Positions 5,478 through 55,685 of a DNA stretch of 64,000 bases are shown piece by piece. This DNA is from Methylococcus sp. EFPC2 (GTDB lineage Bacteria > Pseudomonadota > Gammaproteobacteria > Methylococcales > Methylococcaceae). A program made the translations under genes and the position numbers. The DNA lies in the NCBI RefSeq assembly GCF_016925495.1, contig NZ_CP070491.1:2356001-2420000 (forward strand), read 5' to 3'. The stretch's first letter is position 1, and each line of letters opens with the position of its first letter. The notes below the pieces were generated by a model. The model saw only the letters and a list, made by a program, of their open reading frames with translations. It had not been told where the DNA came from and did no database searches.

Positions 5478-7130
5478 ATGTATCGATACGACGAATACGA
5501 TCAAACTCTGGTCGACGAACGGGTCGCCCAGTTCCGCGATCAGACCCGCCGCTTTCTGGAAGGACAACTGAGCGAAGATCAGTTCAGGCCGCTACGGCTG
5601 ATGAACGGACTCTACATACAACGCCACGCGCCGATGTTGCGAGTCGCGGTGCCTTATGGCCTGTTGTCGTCACGCCAGTTGCGCATGTTGGCGCACCTGG
5701 CCCGCAAATACGACAAGAACTACGGCCACTTCACCACCCGCCAGAACATCCAGTACAACTGGCCCAGGCTGGAGGACGTGCCGGACATGCTGGCCGAGCT
5801 TGCCTCCGTACAAATGCATGCCATCCAGACCAGCGGAAACTGCATCCGCAACGTCACCAGCGACCATCTTGCCGGCGTATGCGTCGATGAACTCGAGGAT
5901 CCGCGTCCCTGGTGCGAGATCATCCGCCAGTGGTCCACCCTGCATCCCGAGTTCGCCTTCCTGCCGCGCAAGTTCAAGATCGCGGTCAGCGGCGCCGCCA
6001 AGGATCGCGCCGCGACGCAGCTTCACGACGTCGGCCTGCACTTGGTCAGGAACGCAAGCGGCGAGATCGGTTTTGAGGTACTGGTCGGCGGCGGCCTGGG
6101 CCGCACCCCCATCATCGGCAAGACCATACGTCCTTACCTCGAAAAACAGCACCTGCTGTCCTATCTCGAAGCCATCTTGCGCGTCTACAACCGCTACGGC
6201 CGGCGCGACAACAAATACAAGGCACGCATCAAAATCCTGCTGAAAGAAGAAGGAATCGAGAAGTTCACCGCGCTGGTCGAGGAAGAGTGGGCTCATATCC
6301 GCGACAGCCTACTGCTCGACGCCCGCGAGATTGAACGGGTCAAGCAGTACTTTCTGCCACCGGCTTACGAAACGATATCCTCGCCGGATTCCGCCTTTGT
6401 CACGCATCAGGAACGCGATCCCGGCTTCGCCGCGTGGGTGCGGCGCAACACCGCGGAACATAAAACTCCTGGCTACCGAGCCGTCTTCATTTCGCTCAAG
6501 GCCCCGGGTGTCGCGCCCGGAGACATCACAGATACCCAAATGGATGCCGTCGCCGATTTGTGCGACCGCTACAGCGGCGGAGAACTGCGCGTAACACACA
6601 CGCAGAACCTGGTGTTCGCCGACGTGAAGGAGTCCGATCTCTATACCTTATGGCAGACGCTCGACGAACTCGGCTTAGCAACCGCGAACATCGGTACCGC
6701 CACCGACATCATCTGCTGCCCGGGGCTGGATTTCTGCTCACTGGCGAATGCCAGTTCCATTTCGGTCGCCCAGGATATTTATTCAAGGCTGGAAAATATT
6801 GACTACCTCTACGACCTGGGCGACTTGCGCATCAACATTTCCGGCTGCATGAACGGATGTGGCCATCATACCGTCGGCCACATCGGCATCCTCGGCGTCG
6901 ATAAGAAAGGCGAGGAGTGGTACCAGATCACCCTGGGTGGCTCCTCTTCCAATGATGCGTCGCTCGGTGAACGCCTCGGCCCTTCGCTGGCCAAGAACGA
7001 GGTCGGAAAAGTCGTCGAGACCATACTCAAAATCTACGCCGACCTGCGCCGGGAAGAAGAAGGTTTCCTGGACACTGTCCGCCGCATCGGCGTCGAACCT
7101 TTTCAGGAGAAAGTCTATGCAGATCATTAA
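5478..7130 (+). CDS. cysI: Ferredoxin-type sulfite (nitrite/sulfite) reductase hemoprotein
   Basis: A 550-residue sirohaem/[4Fe-4S] enzyme that reduces sulfite to sulfide for cysteine synthesis. The two-fold ferrodoxin-like repeat is visible, with FTTRQNIQYNW in the N-terminal half. The cluster ligands are Cys414 and Cys420 (CPGLDFC), then Cys457 and Cys461 (CMNGC). Full length for the family (about 550). The close relatives I recall, including the Pseudomonas CysI with a DUF934 neighbour, are assigned to sulfite reduction; nitrite as substrate cannot be ruled out from sequence. The next gene overlaps its end by 14 bp, so the two are translationally coupled. Confidence 0.88.
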   Translation: MYRYDEYDQTLVDERVAQFRDQTRRFLEGQLSEDQFRPLRLMNGLYIQRHAPMLRVAVPYGLLSSRQLRMLAHLARKYDKNYGHFTTRQNIQYNWPRLEDVPDMLAELASVQMHAIQTSGNCIRNVTSDHLAGVCVDELEDPRPWCEIIRQWSTLHPEFAFLPRKFKIAVSGAAKDRAATQLHDVGLHLVRNASGEIGFEVLVGGGLGRTPIIGKTIRPYLEKQHLLSYLEAILRVYNRYGRRDNKYKARIKILLKEEGIEKFTALVEEEWAHIRDSLLLDAREIERVKQYFLPPAYETISSPDSAFVTHQERDPGFAAWVRRNTAEHKTPGYRAVFISLKAPGVAPGDITDTQMDAVADLCDRYSGGELRVTHTQNLVFADVKESDLYTLWQTLDELGLATANIGTATDIICCPGLDFCSLANASSISVAQDIYSRLENIDYLYDLGDLRINISGCMNGCGHHTVGHIGILGVDKKGEEWYQITLGGSSSNDASLGERLGPSLAKNEVGKVVETILKIYADLRREEEGFLDTVRRIGVEPFQEKVYADH

Positions 7131-7602
7131 GGACGGACTCATCGTCGAGGACGACTGGCGGCATCTGGCCGATGACGAGACCGTGCCGGCGGCAGGCCGT
7201 TATACGGTGTCTAGTCAGCGCTGGCTGGCCGAACATCCGTCTTTGGCATCGGGCCCCGACGAGTTGGGCCTGCGATTGCGGGGTGAAGACAAGCTCGAAG
7301 ACTTGGCCGACGATCTCGGCTACTTCGCCCTCATCGTCATCGAGTTTCCCACCATGGCGGATGGCCGCGGCTTTACGCTGGCTCGCCTGCTGCGCGAGCG
7401 TTATGGCTATCGCGGAGAAATCCGGGCGCGCGGAGAGTATATCCGTGACCAGATTTTTTTCATGAGCCGGGTAGGAATCAACGCTTTCCAATTCGGGGAA
7501 GAGCAATCGCTCGAATCTCTTTTACCGGCGCTATCCGAATTCACCGTCCGCTATCAGGCGGCGGTAGACCAGCCACTCCCCCTATACCGTCGACGCGGTT
7601 AA
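7117..7602 (+). CDS. DUF934 family protein, partner of CysI
   Basis: A 161-residue protein. ATG at 7117 was chosen because CAGGAGAAA lies just upstream and MQIIKDGLIVEDDW matches the family N-terminus; a longer in-frame ORF from 6859 is only read-through of cysI sequence. It overlaps the cysI stop by 14 bp. The compact alpha/beta sequence has conserved-looking stretches (FPTMADGRGFTLARLLRER, GYRGEIRARGEYIRDQ). DUF934 proteins are recurrently encoded beside this type of sulfite reductase and are thought to help sulfite reduction; the biochemistry is not known to me. Confidence 0.85.
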   Translation: MQIIKDGLIVEDDWRHLADDETVPAAGRYTVSSQRWLAEHPSLASGPDELGLRLRGEDKLEDLADDLGYFALIVIEFPTMADGRGFTLARLLRERYGYRGEIRARGEYIRDQIFFMSRVGINAFQFGEEQSLESLLPALSEFTVRYQAAVDQPLPLYRRRG

Positions 7603-7610
7603 ACCAGAGC

Positions 7611-7645
7611 CGCAAAAAAAGGGCGTTGCAAGAACGCCCTTTGGT
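7611..7645. terminator. Intrinsic terminator between DUF934 gene and OmpA-like lipoprotein
   Basis: AAAGGGCGTT (7618-7627) and AACGCCCTTT (7633-7642) make a perfect 10-bp stem with a 5-nt loop. A run of seven A on the left gives a good U-tract for the leftward transcript. It can serve both convergent genes. Confidence 0.85.
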
Positions 7646-7678
7646 GACTGGAATACCGGCTCCTAATCTTTTCGGCCG

Positions 7679-8431
7679 TCAATGTTGGCCGTGCCGGCCA
7701 TGTTCATAGTGGGTGCGATGGCCATGATGCCCTTCGGTAGGCTGATGAACCTGCAAATCGACACGGCGATTTTCTGCACTCGGCCGATTGTCCGGGCCCG
7801 GAGCTTCGCCGACAGCCACATCATGCACGATGGCACTGGCCGGCAATCCTTGCTTGACTAGCAAAGCCCTCACTGCATCGGCTCGACGTTCGGCCAGATG
7901 CTTATTGGCATGAGCCTTTCCGACCGTATCCGTGTAGGCGATCACATCCACCGTCAAATTGGGATAGTCCTTGGCCAGGTGCAATACCGAGTCGATATGT
8001 TCCTGCCTCAAGGACTTGGGTACAGCACTACCAGTATCGAAATAGGCGACCGGCAACAAATTCTCTTTGTGCAGCCCCCCCAACTCGTCCAAACGGTGAC
8101 AGATCTCCTTGTGACGATCACAGTTGTCATGCCAGCGGATCAATGCCTCCTCGGCCAGCTTTCGGTGCTCCGCCGCTTTGCCGGCTGCATCCAGCGCGCA
8201 TTTTTCCAATTCGATGTTCCAATAATGATCGTCCTGCCAGTACTGCTTGATCTTGCGGGCATGGGCGAGATTTTCTTCGGCTAGCGACTCGTGAGCAATA
8301 AACTGACCGAAATCCCCTTGAGTAGCCTCGTCGATCTTAGCATCCAACGCCGCCAGGTTACGGGACGGCGCCGCGCAGGCGCTCAGCAACACGCCGAGCC
8401 CGATGGCCGTTAACACATGTAGTTTGTTCAT
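7679..8431 (-). CDS. OmpA-domain lipoprotein with histidine-rich tail
   Basis: A 250-residue predicted outer-membrane lipoprotein. ATG at 8431 is preferred over the ORF end at 8488: it follows AAGGAG and gives a signal peptide with lipobox LSAC (Cys19). A helical middle section (about 25-130) is followed by an OmpA-C peptidoglycan-binding domain (about 133-235) containing VAYFDTGSAVPKS, AYTDTVGKAHANKHLAERRADAVR and ENRRVDLQV. The last 20 residues are unusually rich in His (GHHGHRTHYEHGRHGQH), which could bind metal; that is inference. It is co-directional with the exosortase-type gene 54 bp upstream and probably in its operon. Confidence 0.88.
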   Translation of the reverse strand: MNKLHVLTAIGLGVLLSACAAPSRNLAALDAKIDEATQGDFGQFIAHESLAEENLAHARKIKQYWQDDHYWNIELEKCALDAAGKAAEHRKLAEEALIRWHDNCDRHKEICHRLDELGGLHKENLLPVAYFDTGSAVPKSLRQEHIDSVLHLAKDYPNLTVDVIAYTDTVGKAHANKHLAERRADAVRALLVKQGLPASAIVHDVAVGEAPGPDNRPSAENRRVDLQVHQPTEGHHGHRTHYEHGRHGQH

Positions 8432-8484
8432 GACTGCTCCTTGAATATCGTAACGGTGGTTAGGGCAGGCCTGACCGGCCAAAC

Positions 8485-8922
8485 TCATTTGGCCCGCAAG
8501 TCTTCGCCTTCATCCAGCGAACCGAAGCTTGTCCAGTACAAGGGGTAGTGCAGACCGAAGTACCGGGTATCCTCGCTATAGCGCTCCCACACATAGCCGG
8601 GCGTCACGAAATCATCGGTCGGTATGGGCGCCGTAATGAACTCGGCAGCGCCGACCAAGGTTCGACTCACCGTATGAAATACCCCGCGCACTACGCCGAC
8701 GGTAAGGCCGGCAAAGATGTTGCTGTCGCTGGTGATGTTGCCAATATTCTTGGGCAGTTCGACGACGCCGGTCGCGACGTTGGCAAGACCATGGGATGCC
8801 TTGCTGACGAATCGCGACCCCCAACTTTGGTCCTGTTGATCGTGTCGGGCATACGAAGGCGCCGAAAAAGCTGTCAGCAAAGCTAGGCTGCCGGCCGTAA
8901 GCAAAGTGCGAAAATGATTCAT
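8485..8922 (-). CDS. Putative exosortase-system-associated exported protein (TIGR04073-like)
   Basis: A 145-residue protein with a signal peptide (cleavage near PSYARHD) and a core rich in Gly, Val and small residues (GLANVATGVVELPKNI, VGVVRGVFHTVSRTLVGA). It ends in an aromatic segment with RYFGLHYPLYW. I recognise this as resembling the TIGR04073 family, found in genomes with PEP-CTERM/exosortase sorting; the window carries such substrates at 39.5 and 61.7 kb. Its function is unknown. It is likely transcribed with the OmpA-like lipoprotein downstream. Confidence 0.62.
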   Translation of the reverse strand: MNHFRTLLTAGSLALLTAFSAPSYARHDQQDQSWGSRFVSKASHGLANVATGVVELPKNIGNITSDSNIFAGLTVGVVRGVFHTVSRTLVGAAEFITAPIPTDDFVTPGYVWERYSEDTRYFGLHYPLYWTSFGSLDEGEDLRAK

Positions 8923-9052
8923 GATCCCCTCCTTAAATCATTATTTGGGAATGACGAAACTGGCCTTGACCAGTTTCTCGAATCAAGTGTAGGAGAGTTC
9001 CCGGGATTCTGCGAAAAACCCTGACCACCATCTCAATCGGGCCGACGAACGG

Positions 9053-9058
9053 TATAAT
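9053..9058 (+). promoter_or_regulatory. Possible -10 box for maf
   Basis: A perfect TATAAT lies 45 bp before the maf start. No good -35 hexamer is seen at the expected spacing, so this is a weak call. Confidence 0.4.
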
Positions 9059-9102
9059 TCCACTCGCTCGCACAAGACCATGCGCATCACCCACGTAATT
9101 CC

Positions 9103-9705
9103 ATGTCCTCACGCCCTTCGCTGGTGCTCGCCTCCAGCTCTCGTTACCGCCGCGGAATCTTGGCCAAACTGGGTCTACCCTTCGAGTGGGCCGCCCCGGC
9201 CGTCGACGAATCCCCGCAGGCGAACGAACTCTTCCCCGCACTAGCCTTGCGCTTGGCGAGCGAGAAGTCCCATGCCCTCGCATCTCGCTACCCACATCAC
9301 TTAATCATCGGGTCCGATCAAGTCGCGACACTCGACAACAAGCAACTGGAAAAGCCGTTGACTCGGGAGCGCGCAATCGAGCAACTTCGGGCAGCATCCG
9401 GAAAATCGGTGAAATTTTTCACCAGCCTTTGCGTTTTAGACTCCAGTAGCGGAGAAAGCCGGCTGGACCTAGATGAAACCATCGTCCGGTTTCGCCCATT
9501 GTCTGAGCGCATGATTGCCGCTTATGTGGAGCGGGAGCAGCCTTACGACTGCGCTGGCGCCTTCAAGTCTGAAGGACTGGGGGTGGTCTTGTTCGAAAAA
9601 CTGGAAATGGAAGATCCCAACGCCCTTGTCGGCCTCCCCCTCATCAGACTAATCCGACTGCTGGAAAGCTTTGGCGTCAACGTCCTCAACGCCGGTAATA
9701 GTTAA
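9103..9705 (+). CDS. Maf/YceF-type nucleoside triphosphate pyrophosphatase
   Basis: A 200-residue Maf-family protein, full length. LASSSRYRRGILAKLGLPF at the N-terminus, VDE near residue 40, and SDQVA around 70 are the family motifs. Maf proteins hydrolyse non-canonical nucleotides; the SDQV variant and overall sequence fit the YceF branch (7-methyl-GTP pyrophosphatase) better than the dTTP/UTP-specific YhdE branch. Its 3' end overlaps the convergent lytic transglycosylase gene by 20 bp. Confidence 0.85.
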   Translation: MSSRPSLVLASSSRYRRGILAKLGLPFEWAAPAVDESPQANELFPALALRLASEKSHALASRYPHHLIIGSDQVATLDNKQLEKPLTRERAIEQLRAASGKSVKFFTSLCVLDSSSGESRLDLDETIVRFRPLSERMIAAYVEREQPYDCAGAFKSEGLGVVLFEKLEMEDPNALVGLPLIRLIRLLESFGVNVLNAGNS

Positions 9706-10306
9706 GGACCCTATCCACATAATCCTGAGTTTCGGCAATGGGAGGAATTTGATTGCCGAATCTTCTCACGGTATTTTCGCCGGAGTTGTATGCGGCGACC
9801 GCAAGACGCACGTCGGAACGAAACATCCCCAGCAACGCACTGAGATATCGTGCGCCACCGTCGATGTTTTCCACCGGATCGAAACGATCACGTACGCCGA
9901 AGCGCTCGGCGGTTCCCGGCATCAACTGCATCAAACCGGCCGCGCCCTTGTTGGAAACCGCTCCCGGATTGTATGCGGATTCCGCTTGAATCACTGCATG
10001 CAGCAAAGCCGGGTCGAGGCGGTAACGGTCCGCGGCGGCCTCTACCAAAGGGGTGTACTGCTGTCGATTTTTTTCGAAGATACGGCTCGAGTATCGAGAG
10101 TGCGCCGATGCCAAGGCACCCGAAGGCGCACTCCGGGAAAACGCAACCGGAGTATGGATGATCAATCGGAAGCCGGAGTGGCGCGGCTTGTCCGTGTAGT
10201 AAACGTGCCCGGCACCGTCAACGTACTTGTACACATCGGCATACGAAATCCCGCTGCCCAGCACCAGCAAAGCCATCACCAGCCATTTCGAGTCTAATCC
10301 ATACAT
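9686..10306 (-). CDS. Lytic transglycosylase (SLT domain) with N-terminal DUF4124
   Basis: A 206-residue exported protein: signal segment to about residue 23, a short DUF4124-like strand (VYKYVDGAGHVYYTDKP), then a goose-type lysozyme/SLT domain (about 80-195). The catalytic Glu lies in HAVIQAESAYNPGAVS, with GAAGLMQLMPGTAERFGV and AVAAYNSGENTV downstream. It cleaves the MurNAc-GlcNAc bond in peptidoglycan in the periplasm. It overlaps the 3' end of maf. MltC/MltE-like housekeeping turnover is the likely role. Confidence 0.9.
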   Translation of the reverse strand: MYGLDSKWLVMALLVLGSGISYADVYKYVDGAGHVYYTDKPRHSGFRLIIHTPVAFSRSAPSGALASAHSRYSSRIFEKNRQQYTPLVEAAADRYRLDPALLHAVIQAESAYNPGAVSNKGAAGLMQLMPGTAERFGVRDRFDPVENIDGGARYLSALLGMFRSDVRLAVAAYNSGENTVRRFGNQIPPIAETQDYVDRVLNYYRR

Positions 10307-10386
10307 CGTCTACCTCGTCGGGGCGAATACGCGCAGCACTGGGAGGCTAGTCTTGCACGTAAGCGCCACATTGCAAGTGCACAACC

Positions 10387-11598
10387 TTATGCCCGAACCG
10401 GCTTAACGCAATCAGCGGCAGCCCGCGCTCGGAAACGGGCCTGCTCGACATCGTCACCCGAAGCCAATGCAACCCCCATGCGGCGACGAGGGAACGACTC
10501 CGGCTTGCCAAATAAGCGTATCTCCGTACCCGGAATAGCAAGAGCCCGCTCTACCCCCTCGAATGCCACGTTCCTTCCTTCTATCTGTCCATAAATAACC
10601 GCACTGGCACCGGGATTCCGCAAAGTTGTGGTGACGGGCAAGCCCAAGACGGCACGTGCATGGAGTTCGAACTCGCTTTGGGCCTGAGTGACCATGGTGA
10701 CCATTCCGGTATCATGCGGTCTGGGACTGACTTCGCTGAACCACACCCGATCGCCCTTCACAAACAACTCCACCCCGAACAAACCTCGTCCACCCAATCG
10801 CTCGCACACGGAATCGGCAATCCGTTGCGCTTCAGCGAGCGCCTCAGCGGACATCGGTTGAGGCTGCCAGCTTTCGACATAGTCGCCATTTTCCTGCCGA
10901 TGCCCGACCGGATCGCAAAAATAAGTGCGCAATTCTCCGTGCACATCGAGCGCTCTAACGGTCAGCAAAGTAATCTCGAAATCAAAATCCACTTTCCCTT
11001 CAACAATCACGCGCCCCCCCTTAACGCGTCCCCCTTCCTGGGCATACGTCCAGGCCCTGCCGATGTCCCCCACCGAACGCAACAACGACTGCCCTTTCCC
11101 GGAAGACGACATCACAGGCTTGACGAAACACGGAAAACCGATAGTCTCAATGGCCGCAAGAAAAGACTCATGGGTATCGGCGAACGCATACCGCGATGTC
11201 GGCAAACCAAGCTCCTCAGCCGCCAGACGTCGGATGCCCTCCCGATTCATGGTAAGCTGGACCGCACTCGCCGTGGGTATGATTTCGGCTAAACCCTCAT
11301 GTTCAATGGATAGCAGAGCATCCGTAGCGATCGCCTCTATTTCCGGAACGACGAAGTGCGGCCGCTCCGACTCGATAAGCCGCCTAAGCGCATGAGGGTC
11401 AGTCATGTCGAGCACATGAGTGCGATGCGCAACCTGATGTGCGGGCGCCAGCGTGTAGCGGTCGGCCGCGACCACCTCCACGCCATAGCGCTGCAATGAA
11501 ATAACCACCTCCTTGCCAAGTTCGCCACTACCCAGTAATAAAACGCGGGTAGCCGCCAAGGAGGAATAAGGAGCAAAATTGATGGGTAATCGGACCAT
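10387..11598 (-). CDS. purT: Formate-dependent phosphoribosylglycinamide formyltransferase
   Basis: A 403-residue ATP-grasp enzyme that uses formate and ATP to convert GAR to formyl-GAR in purine synthesis. The N-terminal pre-ATP-grasp segment has [14 protein letters not shown]. The ATP-grasp core follows, with [18 protein letters not shown] as the nucleotide-binding loop and [19 protein letters not shown] and SPRPHDTG in the metal/ATP site. The usual length is about 390-400. Use of formate fits a C1-utilising host, though PurT is common elsewhere. It appears monocistronic. Confidence 0.95.
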
Positions 11599-39107: not shown

Positions 39108-39461
39108 CGCGGCGGTCACCGGGTTCGGGCTGAATTCGGCGGCAATGCTCTGTCGGGTCGGCGACTTGAGGAAACTCTGATTTAGCCCTTCGACAGGACG
39201 AACGCTAAGGGCTTGATTCCGTTCAGGGTGAACGCGTCGAACCCCGACTTATTCAGAGCATCCTTGAGCTATCTCAACCGTGCCCCGGCGCCGGAAGCTT
39301 AACGCCCCGATACAAACGGTGTTTAATCTCCAAACGTCCGGGCTGATCGGGGCTACCGATTTGCCGCGCGGATGAAGCGGGCGGCGCCCGTGCCGCCGAA
39401 CAGGGCATGGGCGGATTCCGCGCGTTCCCATCGACACTCATCAAAGCAGGGGGCTTTGTTT
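39108..39461. other. Intergenic region with an imperfect inverted repeat
   Basis: A 354-bp gap containing the palindromic element at 39169-39272 and, downstream of it, the presumed promoter region of the SGNH hydrolase. No ORF with a ribosome site is seen. Confidence 0.45.
39169..39272. repeat. MITE-like imperfect palindrome
   Basis: The left arm GGAAACTCTGATTTAG..CTTCGACAGG..GAACG matches the inverted right arm GGATGCTCTGAATAAG..GTTCGACG..GAACG. The arms share CTCTGA, AG, TTCGAC and GAACG in order. It resembles small dispersed intergenic repeats; no second copy is seen in this window. Confidence 0.45.
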
Positions 39462-40397
39462 ATGTCCATCCAACGTTTTCTCATCGCCTTGGCGTTCCTG
39501 CCGTGCCTCGCATCGATGGCACACGCCTCGCCTTACAGTGCCGTGGTGGTTTACGGAGACAGCCTGTCCGACAACGGCAACCTGTTCGCCGCAACAGGCT
39601 TACCCGGCACGCCTTATTACAACGGCCGACGTTCCGACGGCCCGCTGGCCGTGGAACACCTGGCCACGTCCCTCGGCGCGCCCCTGGTGGATCTGGCCTG
39701 GATAGGTGCGACGACGGGGGTCGGCAATTTCGGCGACAACGGCAGCGTGACCTCATTCGGGTTCGCCGGCCTGCCCGGCATGACGACAGTGTATGACACG
39801 ACCCGGGGCACGCTAGGACCGCTCTTGAGCGATGGGCTCTTCGTCGTGTGGGGTGGCGCGAACGACTTTTTGGCACCCTCTCCACTCGACGCCGGCGACC
39901 CGCTGGCGATCATAGACAGAGCGGTAAACAACCTGGTTGCCATCATCTCGGACTTGCAGGCGCTGGGGGCGGGCACCATCCTGGCACCGGGTATGCCGGA
40001 CCTCGGCCTGACCCCGGAGTTCAGGTCCTTGGGTCCAGTCGCCGCGGCACAGGCCAGCGCATTTACCGACGCGTTCAATGCGCTGCTGCTGGCCAGCCTG
40101 CCTACGGACGTGCTGTTTTTCGATACAGCCGCCCTGACGCGCGACGTGGTCGCCAACCCGGCCGCTTATGGCCTGACCAATGTGACGGACGCCTGTTTCG
40201 ACGGGGTGACGCAATGTTCGACCCCGGCGAACTACCTCTATTACGACTCTTTTCATCCGACGACGGCGGCCGACGCGATCATCGCCCGCGGTTTCCTGGC
40301 GACCTTGGCGGTCCCCGAGCCTTCTTCCCTGGCGCTAGCCGTCATGGGCTTGGCGCTGGTCGCCGCACGGCGGCGCTTCGGGTTTGCCACGCTCTAG
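39462..40397 (+). CDS. Secreted SGNH/GDSL hydrolase with PEP-CTERM sorting signal
   Basis: A 311-residue esterase/lipase-type protein. The start at 39462 follows GCAGGGGG and gives signal peptide MSIQRFLIALAFLPCLASMAHA. Block I GDSLSDNGN has nucleophile Ser34, WGGANDF is block III and DSFHPT near 270 holds the catalytic Asp-His. The C-terminus VPEPSSLALAVMGLALVAARRR is a textbook PEP-CTERM signal: motif, membrane helix, Arg cluster. The protein should be handed to exosortase and released or anchored at the surface. The substrate is unknown. Confidence 0.92.
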   Translation: MSIQRFLIALAFLPCLASMAHASPYSAVVVYGDSLSDNGNLFAATGLPGTPYYNGRRSDGPLAVEHLATSLGAPLVDLAWIGATTGVGNFGDNGSVTSFGFAGLPGMTTVYDTTRGTLGPLLSDGLFVVWGGANDFLAPSPLDAGDPLAIIDRAVNNLVAIISDLQALGAGTILAPGMPDLGLTPEFRSLGPVAAAQASAFTDAFNALLLASLPTDVLFFDTAALTRDVVANPAAYGLTNVTDACFDGVTQCSTPANYLYYDSFHPTTAADAIIARGFLATLAVPEPSSLALAVMGLALVAARRRFGFATL

Positions 40398-42571: not shown

Positions 42572-43450
42572 TCAGGCCCGACGGAAACGGAAGGCGAGGC
42601 GGGCGCCGAAAAGGTTGATGCCCAAGCCCACGACAATCAGCGTCGCCGCGCCTATCTTCCAGGCGTGGAGCGGCTCGCCGAAAACCAGTGCCGAGCTGGC
42701 AAAACCGAACAGCGGCACCAGCAGGGTGAAAGGCGCCACGGTCACCGCCGGATAACGGCTCAGCAGCCAGCTCCACGCGGCGAATCCCAGCAGGGTGGAC
42801 AGGTACACGATGTACGCGACCGCGCCGATACCGGGCCAGGACAGATTCAAAATGCCGGCTTCGGCCCAGCGAGAAGCTTCCAGCAGGAATGACAGGATTA
42901 CCAGCGGCGGCCACGCGACCAGGCTGCTCCAGACCACCAGGGCCAGCATGTCGACCTTGCCGAGCTTCTTGGCGATCAGGTTTCCCAACCCCCATGAAGC
43001 GGCCGCGGCGAGGATCAAGACCAGGCCCGGCAGCGAAATTTCACCGCCGAGATTCACCGCGATCAGTCCGATGCCGGAGAAGGCGGTCGAGGCGCCGACG
43101 ATTTGCCAAACGCTCAAGCGCTCGGCCAAAAACACCACCGCCAGCGCGATGGTGAAGAACACCTGGATCTGGAGTATCAGGGAGGCCAGACCCGCGGTGG
43201 TGCCGGCCTGCATGCCGGTGAACAGCAATGCGAACTGGAGCGTGAACATCACCAGTCCGAAGGCTATCACCCTGGAAAAAGGAACCGCCGGCCGCCTGAT
43301 GAACAAGACTGCGGGAAACGCGGCGAGAAAAAATCGGAGCGCGCAGAACAGCAGCGGCGGAATTTCCGCAAGGCCGATTTTGATCACGACGAAGTTATAT
43401 CCCCAGATCATCGTAACCAGTATCGCCAGCGCCATATGATGTAAACGCAT
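42572..43450 (-). CDS. EamA-family (DMT) transporter
   Basis: A 292-residue inner-membrane protein with ten hydrophobic segments in two EamA repeats (GYNFVVIKIGLAEIPPLLFCALRFFLAA; WSSLVAWPPLVILSFLL onward). RhaT/YdcZ-like exporters of this family carry amino acids or small metabolites. It sits 79 bp after the diiron-protein gene in the same direction and could export its product; that is inference. Confidence 0.9.
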   Translation of the reverse strand: MRLHHMALAILVTMIWGYNFVVIKIGLAEIPPLLFCALRFFLAAFPAVLFIRRPAVPFSRVIAFGLVMFTLQFALLFTGMQAGTTAGLASLILQIQVFFTIALAVVFLAERLSVWQIVGASTAFSGIGLIAVNLGGEISLPGLVLILAAAASWGLGNLIAKKLGKVDMLALVVWSSLVAWPPLVILSFLLEASRWAEAGILNLSWPGIGAVAYIVYLSTLLGFAAWSWLLSRYPAVTVAPFTLLVPLFGFASSALVFGEPLHAWKIGAATLIVVGLGINLFGARLAFRFRRA

Positions 43451-43528: not shown

Positions 43529-45637
43529 CTACTCCCGGCAGGACGGCATTTTACTCGAGTCCCGCCGGCCCGGCAGAAAGCGCCGGGCGTAAGCCAGTAC
43601 CAGCGCCCATTTGAAGGGGCGCGTGGCGCTGGTCAGGGAACGATAACCTCGCCCGATGCGATCCCAATGCTGCGCAACCGAGGCGGCGCCGGCGCTCCGT
43701 GCGACCTCATCCAGATGACACTGTATTGCCTCCACCGCGAGCGCGGCATGCCCGCCCGCCAGGGTGTCGATGGACTGATGCAGGGTGACGATGGCAGGGT
43801 CCAGGCCCCAATGGCGCAGTTCGTCGGCCAGGCGCCGGTATTGCGCTCCCAAACCGCTCAGCTCGATGGCGAGGTTTAGGCCCAGGACTTCCGGCAGGTA
43901 ACGATGCGGAAAACGGGAGATGGCCAGCAAATAAACCGGCAAATCGAATGCGCTGTCGAGCAAGCGGTCATGGCGGGCGAACTCCGGGCTGTCGAAAGGC
44001 GGCAAGTCCACGCCGACCGATGCCAGCAAAGCCCGATAGACATTGGGATGGTTGCGTTCGACCCGTCCCGCCCCCAGTTCGTCGGCATAGATCCGGTAAA
44101 GCAATCGCCGCACGCGGTCTCCCTGCCACGCCGCCTCGCCCTGATGTTGCAGCCAGCAGCCGTCGACCAGGACGACGGGCGCGAACTGGCAAACGCCCCA
44201 GACATAGCCCGCGCGGCTCAGCCTGGGGCGGCCGTCGAACGGCCGCTCAGCCGCCACCTGTCCGGCATATTGCCGCTCGACCCAGTCAGACAGGGCTTGC
44301 GGGCTATAGTCCGCAAAGACTCCGCCGCGGCCGCTGCGGCGCAATACCCGTTCGACCACGAGGCGAGCCTGCCCCACCGTCGCCTCGGTATCCGGCCCGA
44401 CCAGCAGGCGATGAAACAGGGAACGCGGAGGCTCGCGGGACGAGAAACAGCGCCGCAGCCGGTCTTGCGCACGCTCCATGAAGGTCCTGGCCCGAAATGC
44501 CTGGCCATGGGACGGCTCCGGCCCGGCCGATGTTTTGATCTGCGCGGGCAAGTCTGCCCCGGCATTGTCGCCCGAGTCGTTTAACAGCGGTGTCCGCGTG
44601 GCGGCCTGCTTGCGCCAGGCCGCGATGAGCGCCAACTCCGGCGCGCTGAACACCCCGAACATCGGCCCGCCGAAACCCGCGAGCCGGTCGAACGGACACT
44701 CACCTTCCGGGCCGTCCATCCATGAGGAGGCTGCCAGCTCGGCCAGAAAAGGCGTGGCATCGAACGGCTCGTCGGCGAACCATTGATCCAGGCTACGCCC
44801 ACCCAGGCTTATTCCGCCATGGTGGCCGCGCGCATACGGCGCCTTGCGGCGGAATATCTCGGCTACCTCGTGTGCCGGATTCGCCGACCGGGATTCGCAA
44901 GCGGACCAGGCATGGAAATAACGCGCCTCGGCCCGGGCATACAAGGCCACGCCCGACCGTACGCGTTCGCGCCCGGCGTGCATCTGCAAGGCACGCCTGG
45001 CATGTTCGTCCAATGCCCGAAGAATTCCGCTGCGCCGTGCTCCCGGCGCGGCGAGCAATCGCCAGGGCGCTGCGGAGCAGGCATAAGCCAACGTGTATCC
45101 GATGACTTCGGGCAACAGGCAAGACGCGTGCAAGCCCAAGGCCAGTTGCAGGCAGGAAAACTCCAGCGCGGGAACGCCGATGCGCGTATCGAAAGCGAAT
45201 GGCCGGGTCGTCACGGCCGGCAAAGACACGCCGGCGCCCGCCAGAGCCCCCCGGTAATAAGAGGCCGGGGCGGCGGCTTCATCGGGCCCGAGCAGTTCGA
45301 GATAGGCCGCGAACAACTCGGCGACCTCGGCCAGGTGCCCGTTGCCGGCCAGTGCCACGGACTGCAGCCAGCCGCCTTCGAGCAGGCCTAGGGGGGCGTG
45401 GAAGGCCAGCGCCTCGCCCGTGAAATGCGCGGGTTCCGAATTCGGCGAGGGGGCGGCGGATGGCAGAGATTCGGGATCGAGGCCCGCTCCGCCCGCTTCC
45501 TTGACCTCGGCCAAGGCCCGATCCAGAAAATCACGGGTCTCGGCCAGCACACCGGGGCACTCGCGGGCATGAACCCAGCGATGAAAGCGCCCACGCATCG
45601 CCTCCCCGTTCGCCCCCCAAGGCTCGCCGGAACTCAT
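43529..45637 (-). CDS. Double-domain haem-oxygenase-like diiron oxidase (iron-containing redox enzyme family)
   Basis: A 702-residue protein with two related all-helical domains. The C-terminal one (about 425-660) has the six-ligand pattern of haem-oxygenase-like diiron oxidases: Glu520 and His530 (YADELGAGRVERNHPNVY), Glu583 (LPEVLGLNLAIEL), His620, Asp624 and His630 (LHQSIDTLAGGHAALA). The N-terminal one (about 80-230) aligns by its YLELLG, LPEVIGYTLAYA and GLLEGGWLQ blocks but lacks the matching His residues, so it is probably structural. Known relatives oxidise amines, fatty acids or amino acids with O2. The 5' end overlaps the carbamoyltransferase stop by 4 bp (ATGA). The reaction is unknown. 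Confidence 0.75.
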   Translation of the reverse strand: MSSGEPWGANGEAMRGRFHRWVHARECPGVLAETRDFLDRALAEVKEAGGAGLDPESLPSAAPSPNSEPAHFTGEALAFHAPLGLLEGGWLQSVALAGNGHLAEVAELFAAYLELLGPDEAAAPASYYRGALAGAGVSLPAVTTRPFAFDTRIGVPALEFSCLQLALGLHASCLLPEVIGYTLAYACSAAPWRLLAAPGARRSGILRALDEHARRALQMHAGRERVRSGVALYARAEARYFHAWSACESRSANPAHEVAEIFRRKAPYARGHHGGISLGGRSLDQWFADEPFDATPFLAELAASSWMDGPEGECPFDRLAGFGGPMFGVFSAPELALIAAWRKQAATRTPLLNDSGDNAGADLPAQIKTSAGPEPSHGQAFRARTFMERAQDRLRRCFSSREPPRSLFHRLLVGPDTEATVGQARLVVERVLRRSGRGGVFADYSPQALSDWVERQYAGQVAAERPFDGRPRLSRAGYVWGVCQFAPVVLVDGCWLQHQGEAAWQGDRVRRLLYRIYADELGAGRVERNHPNVYRALLASVGVDLPPFDSPEFARHDRLLDSAFDLPVYLLAISRFPHRYLPEVLGLNLAIELSGLGAQYRRLADELRHWGLDPAIVTLHQSIDTLAGGHAALAVEAIQCHLDEVARSAGAASVAQHWDRIGRGYRSLTSATRPFKWALVLAYARRFLPGRRDSSKMPSCRE

Positions 45638-47382
45638 GTGACACCCGGCTTGACGAACAAATGATCTTCGATGACCAGCGCATCCAGGCCGCTGGTCATG
45701 AACACGGCGATGGCGTCCTCCACCGTATGGACGATGGGCTTGCCCATCACGTTGAAGCTGGTGTTGAGCAGCAAGGGCACCCCCGTGATGCCGTGGAAGG
45801 CCCGTATCAGTTCATGGAAACGCGGATTCCATTCCTTCTCCACCGACTGCAGGCGGCCGGTGCCGTCGGCATGCACCACGGCCGGCACGCGGTCTATCGC
45901 GTCGGCCCGAAATCGCAGCGCCCGCTCCATATAGGGGGCCTTCTGGTAATTCTCGAAATAGTCCGGCCCGTGCTCGTGCAGTATGGACGGAGCGAAGGGC
46001 CGGTATTCCTCGCGGAATTTCACCCGCCCATTAATCCTTTCTTTCATGGCGGGGTCGCGCGGGTCGGCGAGTATCGAGCGGTTACCGAGCGCGCGCGGGC
46101 CGAATTCGGCGCGCCCCTGCACCCAGCCGACCAGTTTGCCGTCTCCCAACAGGCGCGCGGTCTCCCGGCACAGGGTGTCCGGCAGATGACGTATGTGCAA
46201 TCCACCGGCATGCAGAGCCAAGCGGGCCAGGGCGGCCGGTTCCATGGTCGAGCCGAGATAAGGTGAGAGGGGGCCGCCACGCGGGGCAAAATCTGCATGT
46301 TCTTCTCGCCAAGCCAGCCATGCCGCGCCCAGCGCAGCGCCGTCGTCGGCCGGGGCGGGCGGAACGTAGAGTTCGCGAAACGGGGTGCGCTCGAGGATCG
46401 AACCGTTGAACGAAGAATTCAGGGCGCAGCCGCCGGCCAGCACCAGGCGGTCGCAAGGACTCCGCTCGTGCAGGCCTTGCAGAAGTTCGGTCATGATCTC
46501 GTTGAAGAAGAACTGCCCTGTATGGGCAAGATCGACGGCCTTCCGGGCCGGTTCGTCGCGGCGGCGACGCTTGTGCTCCAGCTTGTTCAGCGCGGCGAAA
46601 AAGCCGGCCTGGGGATGAACGACCCCAAGATCGCGCACCCGGACCAGCGTTCGGAACAGCGCCAGCAACTCTTCGTCGAGCCGTCCGTAAGCGGCCAGCC
46701 CCATGACCTTCCATTCTTCGCCCGCGATCCCGTCAAAGCCGCACAGCTCCGTGAGCTTCATATACAGCAATCCCGGACTACCCAGGCCTCGGGCTTCGTG
46801 AAGCCGGGCCAAGCGTCCTTCACGATAACGGTAAAACGCCATGGAACCGTTTTCGCCGTAGGAGTCCACCACGGCGCAAACGGCGTCTTCGTGGGGGCTG
46901 GCGTAACAGGCCGAGGCCGCGTGGGCGGCGTGGTGGGCGTAATCGCGAAAACTCCGATCGCATCCCGGATACCATTCTTCGAGCACCCTGGCCAGGTTCA
47001 AGCCGCCCCGGGCGATACCGGCCCGGTTGCAAGCCATCATGTGATGGATCTGATAATTAGGCAGGGGGGAGCGCAAACGCTTGATGCCAGGCCGCGCCAA
47101 TCCGTCCGGCTTGAGCAAGCCCAGCGCGGCGGCGACGCGTTCGTACCAGGGCCGGCGTGCAAGCCAACTGCGGGCTATCACGAAGCGCCCGGCGTCCGGA
47201 CAATAGCGCCGCAGCAATTCGGGCAGCCGGCTCAGAGTATCCGGCTCGCAGTTGATGGCGCGCTTGAACTGGAGATAACGCTCTGCGCCCTCGGCGAAGA
47301 CCACGTCGCCCGCCTCGTCGACGATGGCGAGAGCCGGGTCGTGGTAGCTGACCGCGAGGCCGATGTAGTAGGTTTTGCTCAT
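45634..47382 (-). CDS. NodU/CmcH-type carbamoyltransferase
   Basis: A 582-residue enzyme that would transfer carbamoyl from carbamoyl phosphate via carbamoyl-AMP to a hydroxyl. The N-terminal Kae1-like domain starts MSKTYYIGLAVSYHDPALAI and has metal-site YAHHAAHAASACYA and LAGGCALNSSFNG. The C-terminal YrdC-like domain has GRAEFGPRALGNRSILADPR and LLNTSFNVMGKPIV. It is full length. It is first in a two-gene operon with the diiron protein and divergent from the AlkB-like gene, 24 bp between starts. Such enzymes decorate antibiotics, Nod factors and sugars. Confidence 0.92.
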   Translation of the reverse strand: MSKTYYIGLAVSYHDPALAIVDEAGDVVFAEGAERYLQFKRAINCEPDTLSRLPELLRRYCPDAGRFVIARSWLARRPWYERVAAALGLLKPDGLARPGIKRLRSPLPNYQIHHMMACNRAGIARGGLNLARVLEEWYPGCDRSFRDYAHHAAHAASACYASPHEDAVCAVVDSYGENGSMAFYRYREGRLARLHEARGLGSPGLLYMKLTELCGFDGIAGEEWKVMGLAAYGRLDEELLALFRTLVRVRDLGVVHPQAGFFAALNKLEHKRRRRDEPARKAVDLAHTGQFFFNEIMTELLQGLHERSPCDRLVLAGGCALNSSFNGSILERTPFRELYVPPAPADDGAALGAAWLAWREEHADFAPRGGPLSPYLGSTMEPAALARLALHAGGLHIRHLPDTLCRETARLLGDGKLVGWVQGRAEFGPRALGNRSILADPRDPAMKERINGRVKFREEYRPFAPSILHEHGPDYFENYQKAPYMERALRFRADAIDRVPAVVHADGTGRLQSVEKEWNPRFHELIRAFHGITGVPLLLNTSFNVMGKPIVHTVEDAIAVFMTSGLDALVIEDHLFVKPGVT

Positions 47383-47406
47383 GACCAGGCGAGAAATCTA
47401 AAACCC

Positions 47407-48549
47407 ATGGCGGCACCCACACGAACCGTCTCCCCGTCGGAGACCGCAGCATGGCGGGGTCCGACGAAGAGCGGGCCTATCGGCAGCAAATGCGGTGACT
47501 CGTTCTTGGGATACATCGCCCCCCTCCTGCCCTTCATGTTGCCATTATGCAATTTGGCCTTTCTTTCGTCCGGCCCGCACGCCTGGTATTCCGCCCTGTT
47601 ATGGACCCTGCCCGTCTGGCTCTGCGTGATTATGGACATCCGGGGTCCGCGCGTGGCGGAAAAAGTCCCTCCCGGCTGGCCGGATCGGGCATACACCACC
47701 CTGCTCTATCCGCTCTTCGCCCTGCAGTTCGTCAACATCGGCCTGTTTCTGAACTACGCCGGCCAACTGTCTTTCGGCACGCTGTTGGCCATCGGCGAAA
47801 GCGCCGCCAATATCGCGGCCCTGCGCATACTGACCGGCACCACCTCCTGTTGTTCCGCCATCGCGGTCGCCCACGAACTCATACACCGGCGCCCCAGGCA
47901 TCACCGCTGGATGGGCAGGATGCTGCTGTGGACCGTGTTGTACGACCACTTCGCCATCGAGCATGTCGGCGGCCACCATCGCCGGGTCGGGACGACGGCC
48001 GACCCCGCCACGGCCCGTTACGGCGAGAGTTTCCGGCAGTTCTGGCCGCGCACGCTCCTGGGCCAATTTTCAGGTGCCTGGCGGCTGGAACGATCCCGCC
48101 TGGCTCGCCGACCCGGGCCGGTCCGCTTTCTGCGGAATCGGGTGATGCACGGGCTGGCGATCCAAAGCGGATTACTGGCGGCGATATTCGCCGTCTTCGG
48201 CCCCATGGCCCTGGTCCTGTTCCTGTACCAGGCCCATGCCGCCGTGCGTCTGCTGGAAACGGTCAACTATTTCCAGCATTGGGGACTCACGCGCCGCCGG
48301 CGCCGCTTCGACGGAACGGCCGCCTGGGCAACCGACTCCTGGTTCAGCCTGCACCTGTTTCTCGGTCTTTCCTGCCACGCGGATCATCACGAACAGCCGG
48401 GCAAGCCATATCAGCACCTGCATCCGGGACCAACCGGCCCGGTCCTGCCTTATGGCTATTTCGCCGCTGCATTGCTGGTGAAGTTCGACGATGGCCGGTT
48501 CCATCGCCTGGCCCGCCGCGAACTGGAGCGCAGCACGGCCAACCCGTAA
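47407..48549 (+). CDS. AlkB-family membrane non-haem diiron hydroxylase
   Basis: A 380-residue integral membrane protein with four or more helices. The His clusters match alkane monooxygenase: His156-Glu-Leu-Ile-His160 (HELIHRR), Glu185-His186...His190-His191 (EHVGGHH) and His324..His327-His328 (CHADHHEQPGKPYQHL), plus VNYFQHWGL (AlkB NYxEHYGL). There is no rubredoxin domain. ATG 47407 keeps the first helix (YIAPLLPFMLPLCNLAFL); the long upstream frame is antisense to the carbamoyltransferase. It would hydroxylate an alkyl chain; the hydroxyl could then be the carbamoylation site, which is inference. The substrate could also be hydrocarbons generally. Confidence 0.85.
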   Translation: MAAPTRTVSPSETAAWRGPTKSGPIGSKCGDSFLGYIAPLLPFMLPLCNLAFLSSGPHAWYSALLWTLPVWLCVIMDIRGPRVAEKVPPGWPDRAYTTLLYPLFALQFVNIGLFLNYAGQLSFGTLLAIGESAANIAALRILTGTTSCCSAIAVAHELIHRRPRHHRWMGRMLLWTVLYDHFAIEHVGGHHRRVGTTADPATARYGESFRQFWPRTLLGQFSGAWRLERSRLARRPGPVRFLRNRVMHGLAIQSGLLAAIFAVFGPMALVLFLYQAHAAVRLLETVNYFQHWGLTRRRRRFDGTAAWATDSWFSLHLFLGLSCHADHHEQPGKPYQHLHPGPTGPVLPYGYFAAALLVKFDDGRFHRLARRELERSTANP

Positions 48550-51974: not shown

Positions 51975-54900
51975 TCACGCTACTGGTTTGCCGGTACGCG
52001 ACGTTTTATCAAGCACGCCAGCATGCTCATGCACGATGAGCACATCGCATTTCGAATCGGCGAGGATGTGACGGGTTACGCTGCCGAGGAGCATTTCCTC
52101 GACGATAGACAGACCATGCTTACCCATGACGATCAGATCCGCCTCGCACTCTTCTTCTTTGGCGAGGATGAGACGAACCGCATCGCCATGTTCTACGACC
52201 CGGAACAGCCGACGCTGGGTTTCCCCGGCATCCAGCATCAGATTGCCGAGGCGGATCAGCGCCTGCTGCCGAGCTTCGACGCGGTAGGTTTCCAGATCTT
52301 CGTCGGGCACACCGGCCAGTCTCAGCCTCCCTTCGAAAGGCGCGACAAAGGCATGTATCAGCCAGACGTCGGCCTTGGGAGCAATGAGCATCGCCATCTT
52401 CAGCGCGGCGATGGAGTGAGGGGAAAAGTCGACCGGAACGAGCACGCGTCGATAGCCTTCACGCGCCGGGCGCTTGACGACGAGCGTGGGCCTTATGCTC
52501 ATGCGCAGCAGCCTGTCGGCGGTCGTGCCCAGGATCAGGTCGCGCAAGGGATTCAGTCCACGCGCGCCAAGCACCAACAGATTGGCTTGCTCGGCGGCCG
52601 ATAATATTTCCTCCAGCACATTGCCTACCGCCACCCGTGCGCTCGCGGGCACAGGGACCGTCTTGGCCACATCCGACCTCGCTTCCTCCAGTTGGCGCTG
52701 GGCCGCGCCGACCAGTTTGGCTTCGGCCTCGTCGTGCGAGCGGAGCAGTTCGCGCACCGCCTTCAGCGACGACAAGTCCACGACATGCAGCAGATCGAGC
52801 CGGCCCTGATGTTCCGCCGCCAGGCTGGCCGCCCGGCCTGCGGCGTTCCCGGAGTCCGCCGAAAAGTCCGTGGCTACCAGGAACGACCGCGGCGTTTTCC
52901 ACTGTGCTTCCGCTTTGCGCGGGCGATGGGATACCTTTCCTGTTCCCGCGCCGGAGACATGGCGGCGCAACTTCTTGTATCCGCGGATCACGGTCTTTTC
53001 GATTTCCGCGACCACGAAAACCAGTGCCCCGGCGAACGCCACCCTCAGCCACTCGTCGAGCGACAGGTCGGTCGAACCGAACAGCGCCTGCAGCGGCACG
53101 GCATGGGTATAGGCGAGTTGCAGCGCCGCGCAAGCGGCAATGGCGATCAACACATAGCGGTTGCCGAAGATGCCTTCCAGCGACAGGGAGGTCTTGTACA
53201 GGTAACGGCTGCTGATCAAATAGTACATTTCCGCCCCCACGACCGAGCTGACGGCCATGGTGCGCGCGGTTTCCAGGCTGGAGCCCCGGTCCAGCTCCCA
53301 GAGGAACAGGCCCAGCGACCCCGCCATGATGAGCACGGAAACCATCAGCACGCGCCAAGCGAAGAACCAGGACAGCAGCGACTCACGAGCGTCGCGCGGA
53401 GGACGCCGCATCACGTCCCGCTCGGCATGTTCGAATGCAAGAGCCAAGCCCAGGGTGCTGGAGGTCACCATATTGATCCACAACACCTGCGCCGGGGTCA
53501 GCGGCAGCGCCAGTTCGAACAGGATGGCGGCGATCACCACCAGAGCTTCGCCGCCGTTGGTCGGCAGCATGAACAGGATGAATTTGCGGATGTTGTCGTA
53601 GATGCCCCGTCCTTCGCGCACGGCGCTGCCTATGGTGGCGAAATTGTCATCGGCCAACACCACGTCCGCCGCTTCCTTGGCCGCCTCCGTGCCCTTTAGG
53701 CCCATGGCCACGCCGACGTCCGCGCGCTTCAGCGCCGGCGCGTCGTTGACCCCGTCGCCGGTCATGGCAACCACCTGGCCCGCCGCCTGCAGGGCCTGAA
53801 CCAGGCGCAGCTTGTGCTCGGGGCTGGCGCGGGCGTATACGTCCACATCCAGCACCACCTCGCACAGCCTGGCGTCGTCCATCCCCTCGATCTCGGCGCC
53901 GGTCAGAGCCGGCTTGTGTCGGCCGATGCCCAGTTGCTCGCCGATGGCGCGGGCCGTTTCGACATGATCCCCGGTAATCATCTTGACCCGGATACCGGCG
54001 CTGTGACATGCCGCCACGGCGGCCATGGCTTCGGCCCGCGGCGGATCGATGATACCGACCAGTGCCAACAGGGTGAAGCCGGTTTCCAGGTCTGCAAAGT
54101 GCACTTCATGCTGCGACTCCTCGGCGGGCCTCGCGGCGATCGCCAGCAGGCGCAAGCCATGCGCCGCCGCCTCGCTGGCGGCGCGATGCCAATACTCGGG
54201 GTGCAGCGGCGCGTCGGACTCACCGCCCTGCCGGTCGCACATCGCCAATATGCGTTCGGGCGCTCCCTTGACGTAGAGGACGCCTTTGCCGACCACGTGG
54301 TCGTGATGCAGCGTGGCCATGAGTCTGTGTTCGGACTCGAACGGTATGGCGTCGGTGCGCGGCCAGATTTCACGCTCCCATTCGGGGTCGATCCCGGCCT
54401 TGATGGCGAACGCCAGCAGAGCACCCTCGGTGGGATCGCCGACCACCTGCCAGCTCCCGTCGGCCTGCCTGCGCAACCGTGCATCGTTGCACAAAACCGC
54501 GGCGCGGCCTATTTCGACCAGATCCGGACGCTCGCCACCGGTAACGGCCGCGTCTCCCAGGTGTATGCCGCCGTCCGGGGCATAGCCCACCCTACTCACC
54601 TCGAATACATGAGTAGCGGTGATCACCCGTTGCACGGTCATCTCGTTGCGGGTCAGGGTACCGGTCTTATCTGAGCAGATGACGGTTACCGATCCCAGCG
54701 TTTCCACCGCCGGCAGATGGCGGACGATGGCTTTGCGGCCGGCCATACGCCGCATACCTAAGGCCAAGGTAATGGTCATGATCGCCGGCAAGCCTTCCGG
54801 TATGGCCGATGCCGCCAGCGCCACGGCCATCATGAACATCTCGTCGGCAGGATGCCCGTGCCACAGCACGCCGACCGCGAATGTCGCCGCAGACATCACC

Positions 54901-55685
54901 ACGATGGCCAACGCCAGCCAATGCCCGAAGCCGGCGATCTGGCGCAGCAAGGGGGTGGTCGCCGCCTGCACCTGCTCCAGCATCGCGCTGATGCGCCCCA
55001 GTTCGGTGTCGATACCGGTCGCCACCACTACGCCCATGGCCTGTCCGGAAGCGATCAGCGTGCCCGAATAAAGCATGTTGGTGCGATCGCCCAGCAAGGC
55101 GTCGCTCGGCACGGGAGCGATGGTCTTCTCCACCGTCTCGGATTCGCCGGTGAGGATGGCTTCGTTCGCGCGCAAGCCTTTGCCCGCCACCAGACGCAGG
55201 TCGGCGGGCACCTTGTCGCCGGATACGAGCACCACGATATCGCCAGGCACCAGGTCTTCGGCGTCGATTTCCATACGCTCGGCATCGCGTATGACCGTCG
55301 TGCGCAGCGACAACATGCCGCGTATCGCATCCATGGCCTGTTCCGCCTTGCCTTCCTGAATGAAGCCGATGATGGCGTTGACGAAAACGGCAGCCAGCAG
55401 CACGCCGGTGTCGACCCAGTCGCCCAATAGAGCCGTGGTTGCCGCGGCAACCAGCATCACGTAAATCAGAACGTTGTGAAACTGGAGAATGAAGCGCAGC
55501 CAGGCCGGACGTCCGGGCGGTGAGGGGAGCCGATTGCGGCCGTACTGTTTCAGACGGCGGCGGACCTCCGCCGGCATCAGGCCGCGATGCAGATCCGACC
55601 GAAGGCGCTCGACCACGTCATCGGCATCGCTAGCGTGCCAGTCGACCGTTGGCTGGTTTGGGAATGCTTCGCCAGTCGTTGCCAT
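51975..55685 (-). CDS. P-type cation ATPase fused to two universal-stress (Usp) domains
   Basis: A 1236-residue protein. Residues 1-about 920 are a P-type ATPase: cation-ATPase N-terminal domain, TGES at 179-182, PEGLP at 296-300 in TM4, phosphorylated Asp339 in DKTGTLT, KGAPE in the nucleotide domain, and [18 protein letters not shown] points to the type II Ca2+/Na+ group. Two UspA domains follow (about 933-1071 and 1079-1219), each with the ATP-binding GxxG-x9-G(S/T) motif (Gly1040/Gly1043/Gly1053; Gly1188/Gly1191/Gly1201). The Usp part may sense ATP or stress and regulate the pump. It is one continuous frame. Confidence 0.92.

Follow-up and report, generated by a model that had tools for sequence, protein, structure and literature searches.

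A conserved cassette of a tandem heme-oxygenase-like protein, a carbamoyltransferase and an AlkB-type hydroxylase in Methylococcales as a candidate tailoring pathway

The window analysed here, a stretch of 64,000 nucleotides from Methylococcus sp. EFPC2, contains a compact locus in which the genes for a tandem heme-oxygenase-like protein (HDO), a predicted O-carbamoyltransferase (CT) and a predicted membrane hydroxylase (AlkB) lie side by side. The features, in window coordinates, are the following.

42572..43450, minus strand: EamA gene (Pfam EamA), 78 bp downstream of HDO
43529..45637, minus strand: HDO, tandem heme-oxygenase-like protein (Pfam Haem_oxygenas_2), ORF of 702 aa; AF2 model with pLDDT 86 and pTM 0.81; best Foldseek matches HrmI, SznF and RohS
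43553..44494, minus strand: C-terminal heme-oxygenase-like copy of HDO, about residues 382-695, presumed catalytic (Pfam, alignment)
43748..43780, minus strand: presumed HDO ligands H620, D624 and H630 in HxxxIDNxxSGH (alignment; spacing Hx3Dx5H)
43862..43864, minus strand: presumed HDO ligand E592, invariant (33/33)
44048..44080, minus strand: presumed HDO ligands E520 and H530 in the DELGxGx4H helix (profile alignment to RohS)
44597..45637, minus strand: N-terminal heme-oxygenase-like copy of HDO, about residues 1-347, presumed ligands lost; family extension GHH..L.GRSLD.WF..GPMFGVF
45634..45637, minus strand: ATGA overlap of the CT stop and the HDO start (ORF coordinates)
45634..47382, minus strand: CT, predicted O-carbamoyltransferase of the NodU/CmcH/TobZ type, 582 aa; HHxxHA metal motif kept
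47383..47406, no strand: 24 bp separating the start codons of the divergent CT and AlkB genes (ORF coordinates)
47407..48549, plus strand: predicted AlkB-type integral-membrane diiron hydroxylase, at most 380 aa; nine His invariant in 19 orthologues

The ORF coordinates bear out the original prediction as to the positions of the three genes, the overlap of the CT and HDO frames and the divergent AlkB gene 24 bp away. The AlkB frame is open far upstream, from 46297, and the ATG at 47407 is its probable rather than certain start. An EamA exporter had also been counted to the locus. This gene does lie 3' of HDO on the same strand, but it is not conserved beside the trio and was therefore dropped; the TetR, DJ-1, methyltransferase, GDSL lipase and Sec genes were rejected as pathway parts for the same lack of conservation. 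Elsewhere in the window, 51975-55685 (minus strand) encodes a P-type cation ATPase (1236 aa) that carries two universal stress protein domains fused at its C-terminal end, and 39372-40397 (plus strand) a GDSL lipase/esterase that bears a PEP-CTERM sorting signal.

Co-conservation in related genomes had been proposed beforehand as the check on this locus, and it is indeed observed. Among 301 Methylococcales genomes, HDO orthologues occur in 100, CT orthologues in 101 and AlkB orthologues in 101, with the CT and AlkB cut-offs placed at score gaps picked by eye, and 92 genomes hold all three; the exceptions are mostly incomplete assemblies. Co-occurrence gives Fisher P values of 1e-62 to 1e-66, which are not corrected for phylogeny and treat the genomes as more independent than they are. 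By name, the carriers include Methylococcus (with Methylococcus capsulatus), Methylocaldum, Methyloglobulus, Crenothrix, Methylobacter, Methyloprofundus, Methylothermaceae and a Gigantopelta endosymbiont. The complete trio is adjacent in 87 loci, either with AlkB divergent from CT-HDO (41) or in the collinear order CT-HDO-AlkB (46). These are loci and not species, as they come from two overlapping collections (40 HDO loci, and 80 further HDO loci from a scan of genome contigs) in which some genomes appear twice. Given this adjacency and the joint presence of the trio in 92 of some 100 positive genomes, its linkage is far beyond chance.

Only HDO, CT and AlkB form ORF clusters that recur in 39-41 of 41 loci (the 40 loci and the window). 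The clusters that come next, with 23 and 15 loci, appear, from their coordinate overlap, to be antisense frames inside the trio genes, and a pooled Pfam scan of the flanking genes revealed no recurrent function. Throughout Methylococcales, the CT and HDO frames either overlap or come very close to each other. In 57 of 88 loci the end of the CT frame and a possible HDO start share 4, 8 or 14 bp; this count is biased towards overlap because the HDO start nearest to the CT stop was taken. In one genome (G067), HDO is found on a separate contig, with CT and AlkB still paired. The order-wide adjacency, the co-occurrence, the frame overlap and the lack of any other universal neighbour uphold the original proposal of one compact locus and, together with a copy that is split but retained, give good support to the view that the trio functions as a unit. 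In Methylotetracoccus (L106, HDO at 7001-8845) and Methylolobus (L114, HDO at 7001-9076), HDO is not beside CT but upstream of truA-trpB-trpA-accD-folC-like genes; in the Methylolobus genome G089, which is 89% complete, CT and AlkB orthologues were not found.

The AlkB protein could instead serve the catabolism of alkanes or short hydrocarbons, with CT-HDO as an unrelated neighbour through chance or vertical inheritance. The distance matrices of the three proteins are correlated (Mantel r 0.92-0.94), as would be expected for joint vertical inheritance, and since such inheritance alone yields correlated trees, this value does not separate it from functional coupling. However, the trio is kept or lost jointly across a third of the order, it outlasts a rearrangement of gene order, it has no other conserved neighbours, and it is retained in the genome of an animal endosymbiont. 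We therefore consider an accidental neighbourhood extremely improbable.

The CT protein carries both domains of its family, PF02543 (Carbam_trans_N, 104.8 bits) and PF16861 (Carbam_trans_C, 233.3 bits), and matches the solved structures of NovN, GdmN and TobZ with E values of 1e-63 to 1e-70. Both domains and the HHxxHA motif are shared with these three and with NodU and CmcH, over an alignment of residues 148-575; the motif aligns to that of NovN and GdmN, and its H150, H151 and H154 are invariant. Unlike these relatives, the cassette CTs form a Methylococcales group of their own, with 53-70% identity among orthologues, and CT scores 162 bits against the NodU equivalog NF041651 (NCBIfam), whose cut-off is 1000. 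CT is a member of the O-carbamoyltransferase family by its domains and motif, and its predicted reaction is a carbamoyl-phosphate-dependent transfer to a hydroxyl group.

The AlkB protein matches Pfam FA_desaturase and, by phmmer, the solved structures of AlkB alkane 1-monooxygenase (E 2.7e-37). It shares with these membrane proteins (PDB 8f6t, 8sbb) the HExxH, HxxxHH, NYxxH and HxxHH motifs, and H156, H160, H186, H190, H191, H291, H324, H327 and H328 are its invariant histidines. It differs from them in that most cassette members have NYFQHWGL instead of the usual NYxEHYGL and in being tied to CT and HDO. Within the locus, the ORF clusters of the 40 loci include no conserved rubredoxin gene.

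The HDO protein is the sole Haem_oxygenas_2 protein of its genome, and the Pfam match (68.6 bits) covers only its C-terminal half. Its AF2 model is all-helical, and two stretches fit two heme-oxygenase-like copies. A Foldseek search of the PDB with this model placed the N-oxygenases HrmI, SznF and RohS on top (probability 1.00; E 1e-3 to 1e-2, over about one domain), and BesC and CADD also reached a probability of 1.00; the model thus indicates a heme-oxygenase-like fold. On the sequence level, phmmer gave no match of HDO in the PDB, nor do HrmI and SznF match it, and hhalign of the C-terminal domain with CADD/PabS-like HDOs produced no usable alignment. A profile search reached RohS (E 0.0065, 34 residues only), with E520-x9-H530 on the RohS metal helix.

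In an alignment of 33 HDO sequences, H530, H620, D624 and H630 are invariant, as is E592, and E520 is kept in 32, with Asp in one. The same six positions are kept in two single-domain relatives from other Gammaproteobacteria (L200 and L201), and they fit the 3H/3C ligand set described for HDOs (PMC13108848). We presume from alignment and motif, rather than from superposed coordinates, that these three His and three carboxylate residues sit on the core helices. HrmI, the central domain of SznF and RohS have the same fold and a 3H/3C-like invariant set, and the E-x9-H of the first metal helix is as in RohS. In contrast to these enzymes, the cassette HDO is a tandem protein, its N-terminal copy is ligand-less and carries the GHH..GRSLD.WF..GPMFGVF extension, and the spacing on alpha-3 is Hx3Dx5H instead of Hx3Dx2H. 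The longer spacing is found in all cassette members, whereas ordinary HDOs (L186-L196, L199) have the shorter one. Because L200 and L201 also have Hx3Dx5H, we take it as a subfamily variation; H630 is a putative ligand. When these two relatives are aligned to HDO, they share the ligands with its C-terminal half and the GHH..GRSLD.WF..MFGVF extension with its N-terminal half. The best reading of HDO is therefore a tandem duplication in which one copy has a presumptive metal site and the other is degenerate. The earlier description as a double-domain diiron protein holds for the two heme-oxygenase-like domains, but the presumed ligands are confined to the C-terminal one, which gives one presumptive metal site instead of two.

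The ranking of folds does not fix the reaction of HDO, since the N-oxygenases share their fold with HDOs that cleave C-C bonds or desaturate. Tandem-HDO homologues with 30-34% identity occur, without CT or AlkB, in actinobacteria and Myxococcales. In actinobacteria they lie near genes for thioesterase, PEP mutase-like, KAS III-like, acyl-CoA dehydrogenase, P450 and ATP-grasp proteins, and some of these loci also hold genes for Lys/Orn N-oxygenase, DAO and cupin-MetRS. Four such clusters (L149, 4020-11272; L151, 4309-13585; L144; L145) combine thioesterase, PEP mutase-like and KAS III-like genes and the tandem HDO with a P450 or an acyl-CoA dehydrogenase, and L147 has the hydrazine-type set of Lys/Orn N-oxygenase, DAO and cupin-MetRS. 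In Myxococcales (L129, L138 and L152), the tandem HDO is directly followed by an asparagine-synthase-like amidotransferase and an AurF-like oxygenase. The N-oxidising natural-product clusters of both groups place a related tandem HDO beside amide-, amine- or hydrazine-handling enzymes, but they contain no CT or AlkB orthologue and are far larger than the methanotroph cassette.

HDO might also act first, as a UndA-like oxidative decarboxylase or a desaturase of a fatty acid, with AlkB oxidising the alkene or alkane, CT carbamoylating the alcohol and no N-oxygenation taking place. HDO chemistry covers both fatty-acid reactions (reviewed in PMC13108848), and an AlkB-type hydroxylase would be the natural follow-on step for a hydrocarbon. 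UndA belongs to the same superfamily, and AlkB would be a fitting partner for its fatty-acid/hydrocarbon context. However, UndA is a single-domain protein and is absent among the structural matches listed, the best of which are N-oxygenases; moreover, the HDO reading frame is coupled to CT and not to AlkB, and the relatives of HDO reside in nitrogen-chemistry clusters. To our knowledge, UndA has no association with a carbamoyltransferase. We consider this order of events unlikely.

The order that we favour begins with AlkB, which would hydroxylate a membrane-embedded hydrocarbon or lipid precursor. CT would then place a carbamoyl group on the new hydroxyl, giving R-O-CO-NH2, and HDO, with its one presumptive metal site in the C-terminal copy, would oxidise this product, the carbamoyl nitrogen being the most likely target. 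The lipid or hydrocarbon nature of the substrate is suggested by the membrane hydroxylase family of AlkB alone, and oxidation of the carbamoyl nitrogen is favoured by the nitrogen-gene context of the HDO relatives, the fold ranking and the tight coupling to CT. The core scaffold may be drawn from primary metabolism, since the cassette is not accompanied by any conserved gene for building a scaffold. The sublineage additions of typical tailoring enzymes (B12-type radical SAM and CYP107-like P450) and the presence of no second Haem_oxygenas_2 protein in the genome speak for this reading; the Foldseek E values of only 1e-3 to 1e-2 over one domain, the lack of a PDB match to HDO by sequence and the unusual Hx3Dx5H spacing speak against it. 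The trio probably makes one oxidised, carbamoylated metabolite, and the product originally envisaged, a lipid or small metabolite that is hydroxylated, carbamoylated and then oxidised further, is plausible. For the complete reading, in which the trio is one unit and a self-contained Methylococcales tailoring pathway running from AlkB through CT to HDO, with carbamoyl N-oxidation as the most likely last step, we judge the chances to be about even.

In a Methylomonadaceae sublineage, a B12-type radical-SAM protein with DUF4070 directly precedes CT. Its close orthologues are present in 9 of 44 cassette-positive genomes, and the sole cassette-negative genome with close similarity has fragments only. 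These fragments (L213, G137:C18:23000-42000, at 6438-10852) lie in a genome without HDO and AlkB orthologues, possibly at a decayed locus. In Methylocaldum-like genomes, a CYP107-type P450 adjoins AlkB. A CDP-alcohol phosphatidyltransferase gene beside AlkB in a few loci was rejected as a part, since its orthologues are also found in many cassette-negative genomes.

The radical-SAM protein is weakly similar to HpnR/HpnJ, and this raises the question of whether the cassette acts on a hopanoid or other C30-C35 triterpenoid, such that the side chain of a bacteriohopanepolyol would be hydroxylated, carbamoylated and further oxidised. A squalene-hopene cyclase scores above cut-off in all 44 cassette-positive genomes tested, and the 6 cyclase-less genomes all lack the cassette; yet the cyclase is also present in 30 of 36 cassette-negative genomes, so that the test hardly discriminates. 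An identity of the linked protein with HpnR or HpnJ was rejected at 21-30 bits against cut-offs of 650 and 577.6 (TIGR04367, TIGR03471), the HpnR scores being 21-27 bits, and the cassette has no conserved hopanoid gene next to it. These results do not single out hopanoids, and we consider a hopanoid substrate decidedly unlikely. Sterols are unlikely as a general substrate, because an OSC-like cyclase was detected in only 24 of the 44 cassette-positive genomes.

We found no paper on the trio in the open-access literature searched, which leaves out most subscription journals and makes the term undescribed provisional. One methanotroph paper mentions both a carbamoyltransferase and a heme oxygenase, but the former is an ornithine carbamoyltransferase and the latter a Methylomonas LW13 'heme oxygenase' that is not identified as the cassette HDO. 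The enzyme families are all known; what appears to be new is that they occur together, that one copy of the tandem HDO has lost its site and that the set is conserved across the order. The cassette would represent a pathway of the main aerobic methane oxidisers that requires O2, is co-inherited across the order and apparently has no product described so far. Identification of this product would give a new methanotroph metabolite, possibly a biomarker or metal ligand, and the coupling of a tandem HDO to a carbamoyltransferase perhaps reflects a new type of HDO reaction.

A more specific and speculative proposal, which we hold to be very unlikely, is that the cassette makes a lipid-anchored N-hydroxycarbamate, R-O-CO-NHOH, with the alcohol from AlkB, the carbamate from CT and the N-OH from HDO. 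If true, this would be a hydroxamate-like metal-binding lipid of methanotrophs without methanobactin genes, and would bear on a long-standing puzzle, the route by which such methanotrophs obtain copper or iron. None of the 44 cassette-positive genomes has a protein above the cut-off of the methanobactin MbnB equivalog (TIGR04159). The sole true MbnB equivalog among 80 genomes (403 bits) is encoded in G058 at C1:2433942-2434718; among the complete genomes of the same family that were tested, G058 alone lacks the cassette, a single case that could be due to chance.
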